Shown: positions 31,617 through 31,832 of the stretch, in pieces | Position numbering within the stretch: position 1 is the stretch's first letter | Layout: each line of letters opens with the position of its first letter | Assembly (NCBI GenBank): GCA_016937015.1 | Contig: JAFGWT010000214.1 | Coordinates: 1-38,264, forward strand | Direction: 5' to 3' | Length of the DNA stretch: 38,264 nucleotides | From: Deltaproteobacteria bacterium | Lineage (GTDB): Bacteria; Myxococcota_A; Polyangia; JAAYKL01 | Notes under the pieces: generated by a model | Told to the model about the DNA's origin: nothing | Database searches by the model: none | The model's input: only the letters and a program-made list of their open reading frames with translations | Translations under genes and position numbers: made by a program

Positions 31617-31688
31617 GATGTTCCTCCTGCAAAAATATGCATCTGTGTGTGGTGCATTCCCGAAAATCGGAATTATGCGACTGAATCG

Positions 31689-31728
31689 ATTGGCATTATT
31701 TGCCAATTCCACTGGCAATAAATTGCCA
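31689..31728. promoter_or_regulatory. Two palindromic operator candidates between gdhA and the NrpR-like gene
   Basis: Site one (31689-31707) is ATTGGCA-N5-TGCCAAT, a perfect 7-base inverted repeat. Site two (31713-31728) is TGGCAA-N4-TTGCCA, a perfect 6-base one. Both share TGGCA...TGCCA half-sites, and their centres lie about 22 bases apart, close to two helical turns. NrpR of methanogens binds paired inverted repeats (for example GGAA-N6-TTCC) as a dimer, so these are natural targets for the adjacent regulator. The sites lie about 75-110 bases upstream of gdhA. Confidence 0.6.
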
Positions 31729-31750
31729 ATTAACTAGACTCAATTATCGA
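31723..31750 (+). promoter_or_regulatory. Possible promoter of the NrpR-like gene overlapping operator two
   Basis: TTGCCA (31723) and TATCGA (31745) lie 16 bases apart. The -35 box would be inside the right arm of operator two, so bound repressor would block it. The boxes are imperfect, so this is a weak call. Confidence 0.3.
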
Positions 31751-31832
31751 TATGGGCGCCTTAAATCAACGGGTAGGCCTGGTGATGACGAAGAATGTGT
31801 CCGGTAATTTTTCCGGAAACCAGCGAGGTATA

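Follow-up and report, generated by a model that had tools for sequence, protein, structure and literature searches.

We propose that a bacterial NrpR protein forms a self-contained switch with the glutamate dehydrogenase gene gdhA, in which NrpR would act on palindromes between gdhA and nrpR and control both genes, likely via 2-oxoglutarate. We consider this reading probable (roughly 0.7), and it is supported by the identities of the genes, the sites, their conservation, their dependence on nrpR, their helical phasing and the nesting of the genes in trees. The two genes lie in the window (the whole 38,264-nucleotide stretch of DNA analysed here) and are divergent, with a 216-bp intergenic region between them (Table 1).

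Table 1. Genes and palindromic sites of the gdhA–nrpR region, in window coordinates.
Feature	Position	Strand	Description
gdhA, glutamate dehydrogenase, 445 aa, NrpR-linked type	30279..31616	-	PF00208 7e-90, PF02812 4e-51
5-spaced palindrome TTGGCATTATTTGCCAA	31690..31706	.	perfect inverted repeat; missing from the sister species and the other 69 intergenics
6-spaced operator candidate TGGCAATAAATTGCCA, gdhA-side	31713..31728	.	perfect inverted repeat; conserved in sister L014 and, as a class, in relatives
Decayed 4-spaced operator candidate CGGTAATTTTTCCG, nrpR-side	31802..31815	.	aligns with the sister's TCGGCATTTTTGCCGT
nrpR, 335 aa, winged helix (HTH_12) and one NRD domain	31833..32840	+	PF01995 (NRD1_2) 7.5e-77, PF08461 (HTH_12) 6e-14

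By its domain content and predicted fold, the regulator is a genuine member of the NrpR family. The initial annotation had described an NrpR winged helix plus DUF128 in the gene opposite gdhA, and domain searches bear this out: HTH_12 and NRD1_2, the present name of DUF128, both score above their curated cut-offs in the window protein, as they do in the regulators of loci L011, L014, L003, L013 and L015. The window protein matches MJ0159 of Methanocaldococcus jannaschii (PDB 3NEK) in sequence (E 5e-20), and 3NEK is also the top Foldseek match of its predicted fold (E 6e-17, TM 0.86, target-normalised). The NRD fold is common to both proteins, whereas identity in the structural alignment is 24% and the solved chain is the regulatory domain. 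Archaeal NrpR is a repressor relieved by 2-oxoglutarate (PMC4902934), and by analogy 2-oxoglutarate is a plausible effector of the bacterial protein. The start of nrpR is most likely the ATG at 31833, not position 31752, because the starts of relatives align there. This nrpR is the sole PF01995 gene found in the window's own genome. Both ELFV dehydrogenase domains are present in the window gdhA, and the genome holds a second, native gdhA on another contig (G000:C138), about 69% identical to the NrpR-linked copy.

Several neighbouring genes were recorded on the way. A gene with a PPDK_N domain and, by eye, a KaiC/RecA-like start (32878–35577) adjoins the gdhA region; a PPDK_N gene also adjoins the native gdhA of the window's genus and many Kiritimatiellota gdhA loci, with nrpR present or absent (L208, L209, L210, L061–L063, L067, L068, L070, L074, L082, L163 and L193), and a functional link of this gene to glutamate metabolism is possible. 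Genes for HndA/NuoE-, NuoF- and ferredoxin/GltD-like flavoproteins, recognised by eye, precede the gdhA region (25162–29403) and come after gdhA in the related genome G002 (L211). Further along, 35984–37615 encodes a predicted exported protein in which two similar domains are accompanied by a linker rich in Ser, Asp and Thr; Thr-Asp repeats of this sort are also present at another place in the genus (L227).

Palindromic operator candidates are located between gdhA and nrpR, where the initial annotation had placed them. Its two perfect inverted repeats, the 5- and 6-spaced sites of Table 1, share TGGCA/TGCCA, and 22.5 bp, or some two turns of the helix, separate their centres. The pattern TGGCA-N5/6-TGCCA was found three times in the window, one occurrence being inside a coding ORF at 29168, against 0.18 expected from window shuffles, and none of 20,000 base shuffles of the intergenic region yielded two such sites; these palindromes are real and not due to chance. 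The nrpR-side site, overlooked in that annotation, is an imperfect repeat (CGGTA-ATTT-TTCCG) with a poor matrix score of -0.4 bits. In the sister species (L014, genome G001) the counterpart of the 6-spaced site is TGGCAATAAATTACCG, and the distance from the 6-spaced to the 4-spaced site is 88 bp in the window and in the sister alike. The 5-spaced palindrome lies 110.5 bp from the decayed 4-spaced site, so that both its distances are near whole turns. Since it is missing from the sister, where the 6-spaced and 4-spaced sites align, the 5-/6-spaced pair is best read, from this comparison, as a local and recent departure from an older 6-/4-spaced pair.

This older pair is widespread. Close homologues of the window NrpR occur in two MAGs, one of Verrucomicrobia and one of Pontiellaceae, both with the same divergent gdhA–nrpR layout, and nrpR is carried by 88 of 288 genomes in the class to which those genomes belong. 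A divergent gdhA-like gene is present in 73 of the fetched loci, although in four of the 73 it is a distant dehydrogenase (~30% identical). Across about 90 nrpR loci, mostly from Kiritimatiellota, conserved CGGCA/TGCCG half-sites make up two kinds of site, one with a 4-bp spacer (ACGGCAATATTGCCGT; consensus WWACGGCAATATTGCCGTWW) near nrpR and one with a 6-bp spacer near gdhA. In a non-redundant set of 70 gdhA–nrpR intergenics, GGCA-N4-TGCC occurs in 55 (0.48 in dinucleotide shuffles) and GGCA-N6-TGCC in 16 (0.36 in shuffles); each remaining spacing from 0 to 12 occurs once or never, and the single 5-bp case is the window itself. Palindromes are thus conserved beside nrpR homologues, in a form other than the annotated one: the 22-bp TGGCA pair does not hold as a conserved arrangement, and the conserved pair consists instead of a 6-spaced site and a 4-spaced CGGCA/TGCCG site, mostly 64–117 bp apart. 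Almost every 4-spaced site is 103–180 nt from the gdhA start codon, and 6-spaced sites lie 13–93 nt from it. A matrix scan recovered the 4-spaced site in 81 of 89 nrpR loci; since these loci had also supplied the matrix, the argument rests on the strict count and on the control loci in which no nrpR was found. In Planctomycetota and Chloroflexota (L012, L013, L015 and L016) the sequence ahead of nrpR yielded no GGCA palindromes, so the operator type is not universal in bacteria. In two of these loci, from a planctomycete MAG and a Dehalococcoidia MAG (L013 and L015), nrpR lies near a gdhA-type gene on the same strand, gdhA being upstream in the planctomycete.

The distances between the two kinds of site are helically phased. 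Centre-to-centre distances cluster at 64–67, 73–77, 84–88, 98–99, 106–110 and 115–117 bp, roughly 10.5 bp from one cluster to the next and with few values between. For a 10.5-bp period the resultant (R = 0.65, n = 42 loci with dissimilar intergenics) exceeded all of 5000 uniform draws. Shared ancestry makes the loci non-independent, an effect limited by the count of changes on the tree: the distance cluster changes at least 16 times on the NrpR tree, and most nearest tree pairs that differ in distance are off by about one or two whole turns. Some control spacings phase too, but with far lower scores (mean -5 to -2 versus 10 bits), and their phase probably comes from best matches that reuse arms of the 6-spaced site. 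That both sites lie on one face of the helix is well supported, and looping by NrpR between them would be the natural reading of these spacings. LacI, AraC and DeoR are looping repressors with phased distant operators. The likeness is in two sites set at whole-turn spacings of tens to about a hundred base pairs; the difference is that these families are unrelated to NrpR and that the case for looping here comes from phasing.

Linkage by itself would give adjoining conserved sites, and the palindromes might then be used by another DNA-binding protein with nrpR as a mere neighbour. Against this, the 500 bp upstream of 27 gdhA genes of the same class, all from genomes that yielded no nrpR, contain no 4-spaced site; the set includes some incomplete assemblies and one locus where just 43 bp upstream were available, and two of the 27 have a 6-spaced site. 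The 4-spaced site was likewise found in none of 12 gdhA loci from relatives of the window's genome, nor at the native gdhA of G000 or of G002, and the native locus of G001 has one match, within the gene. Conversely, it is present upstream of nrpR where no adjoining gdhA was found, including the second nrpR of G001 (L003). Three loci from the clade nearest the window (L056, L058 and L073) have a glutamate-synthase-like gene as the divergent partner of nrpR (PF01645 confirmed in both of the two tested), and the 4-spaced site is retained at nrpR where this gene replaces gdhA. As gdhA in these genomes with no nrpR found lacks the 4-spaced site and the sites occur with other partners and a paralogue, the sites follow nrpR, and their use by another protein is improbable. 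The partner of nrpR is usually an enzyme forming glutamate from 2-oxoglutarate, which by analogy fits a 2-oxoglutarate sensor.

The same observations bear on readings that take the repeats for something other than NrpR operators. A chance symmetry in sigma-54 -24/-12 elements (TGGCAC-N5-TTGC) is the least credible of these, despite the general resemblance of TGGCA...TTGC to that consensus: its GG and GC are 12 bp apart, whereas the distance is 10 bp in the 5-spaced, 11 bp in the 6-spaced and 9 bp in the 4-spaced site, and both arms here are symmetrically conserved. We rejected this reading on spacing. Hairpins in the gdhA or nrpR leader RNA are hardly more credible; the 6-spaced site is close enough to the gdhA start codon that it could be transcribed, but the stems are short, a terminator-like site was not found in the window region, the 4-spaced site with the same half-sites is usually more than 100 nt from gdhA, and neither nrpR dependence nor helical phasing is expected of an RNA element. 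On these grounds it too was set aside. A more serious, though still unlikely, alternative is that NrpR binds the sites but activates, or answers another metabolite such as glutamate, glutamine or ammonium status, with a logic opposite to that in archaea. An activator could occupy the 4-spaced site in many loci, where it is 103–180 nt upstream of the gdhA start codon. Compact loci, in which each start codon has a site close by, 6-spaced for gdhA and 4-spaced for nrpR, suit repression instead, and the sole characterised relatives are repressors relieved by 2-oxoglutarate (PMC4902934, PMC9765008).

We therefore return to NrpR as a repressor of gdhA and nrpR, for which we infer binding, the effector, the sign of control and looping. 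NrpR would bind the palindromic operators in the divergent region and regulate gdhA and its own gene, probably sensing 2-oxoglutarate, the substrate of GdhA. At low 2-oxoglutarate it would most likely repress both promoters and at high 2-oxoglutarate release them, so that the enzyme converting 2-oxoglutarate to glutamate would be produced as its substrate accumulates. In the conserved form, a 6-spaced site beside gdhA and a 4-spaced site beside nrpR, whole turns apart, would let NrpR contact itself across the DNA; in the window species the nrpR-side site has decayed, and a 5-spaced site has newly appeared at two turns' distance from the site beside gdhA. Two findings count against this switch: spacings of 4, 5 and 6 are unusual for one dimeric protein, and the 4-spaced site in the window itself is badly decayed. 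A promoter at a fixed position relative to the 6-spaced site was not found in 50 aligned loci, and repression by promoter occlusion is thus only a candidate. More tentatively, at somewhat less than even odds, NrpR may be a 2-oxoglutarate-sensing looping autoregulator that bridges unlike, phased operators, is dedicated to one enzyme gene for making glutamate from 2-oxoglutarate and moves between phyla as an entire cassette of enzyme, operators and regulator.

The distribution of the genes speaks to their origin. Among 193 relatives, a PF01995 gene was found only in the window's own genome and in its same-genus sister G001, listed as Myxococcota; in a third species, G002, the NrpR-type gdhA is at the very end of a contig and the flank for nrpR is cut off. 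In the gdhA tree the native copies of the genus group with relatives of their own class, and the NrpR-linked copies group with NrpR-linked gdhA of Kiritimatiellota (97% SH-aLRT); the midpoint-rooted NrpR tree gives a similar grouping (100/99). By this tree evidence, the cassette was probably acquired whole by the myxococcotal genus from a Kiritimatiellota-like donor. The second nrpR of the sister (L227 3897–5200, G001:C221) has 4- and 6-spaced sites upstream in reverse order, 66 bp apart, and between this nrpR and a chemotaxis-receptor-like gene there is a further 4-spaced palindrome, CCGGCAAGATTGCCGC (5118).

The regulon appears, from site searches, to consist of gdhA and nrpR, making the circuit local; weaker sites elsewhere may exist. 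The window's own genome has six TTGGCA-N4..6-TGCCAA matches, of which the window's is the sole intergenic one, and genome-wide pattern searches for regulon members gave low counts, most examined matches being inside ORFs. Two candidates were set aside: TCGGCAATATTGCCGA at G000:C38 (L154) is outside the chosen ORFs, yet no nitrogen gene was recognised nearby, and ACGGCAATATTGCCGT occurs only once in front of a CTP-synthase-like gene (G368, L214). The initial annotation had looked to glnA and amtB as further targets, and this extension mostly fails. Scanned amtB and type-III glutamine synthetase loci almost never have sites; the exceptions are one glutamine synthetase locus with a weak 4-spaced site and a Pontiellaceae locus (L228 2400–2415, G194:C8) with a strong 4-spaced site, ACGGTATTTTTGCCGT, about 200 bp upstream of amtB, which is followed by a PII-like gene (amtB–glnK). 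A wider NrpR regulon is possible in this G194 lineage.

The system resembles and departs from that of Methanococcus maripaludis, in which NrpR represses nif and glnA. Both have the NRD regulatory domain; the candidate operators here are palindromic with four-letter half-sites, like the operators there, and the gdhA-side site has the same 6-bp spacing as the M. maripaludis operator, GGAAN6TTCC (PMC2723118); nif there has two operators, according to the title of Lie 2005 as cited in PMC2723118. The half-site here, conserved as GGCA/TGCC at spacings of 4 or 6, differs from GGAA/TTCC, as had been annotated, and a 4-spaced type is added; GGAA-N6-TTCC, which is not the conserved type here, characterises the archaeal regulon and not the protein family as such. 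The targets also differ, being nif, glnA and glnK–amtB in M. maripaludis and, as predicted from the sites, gdhA and nrpR here, in a bacterial host. Studies of NrpR have dealt with archaea; it has been stated to occur in "certain Bacteria" (PMC2723118), and the literature searched, outside which such papers may exist, yielded no operator or target of a bacterial NrpR. From comparative evidence, the best reading of our sites is that the protein family, NrpR, is a known one and that the operator type and architecture are new. They provide a defined operator, target and phasing rule for a bacterial NrpR, which a single protein and short DNA would suffice to test in vitro. They also suggest that Kiritimatiellota control glutamate synthesis by simple substrate induction, and that an enzyme, its regulator and their operators may have been transferred together to another phylum.
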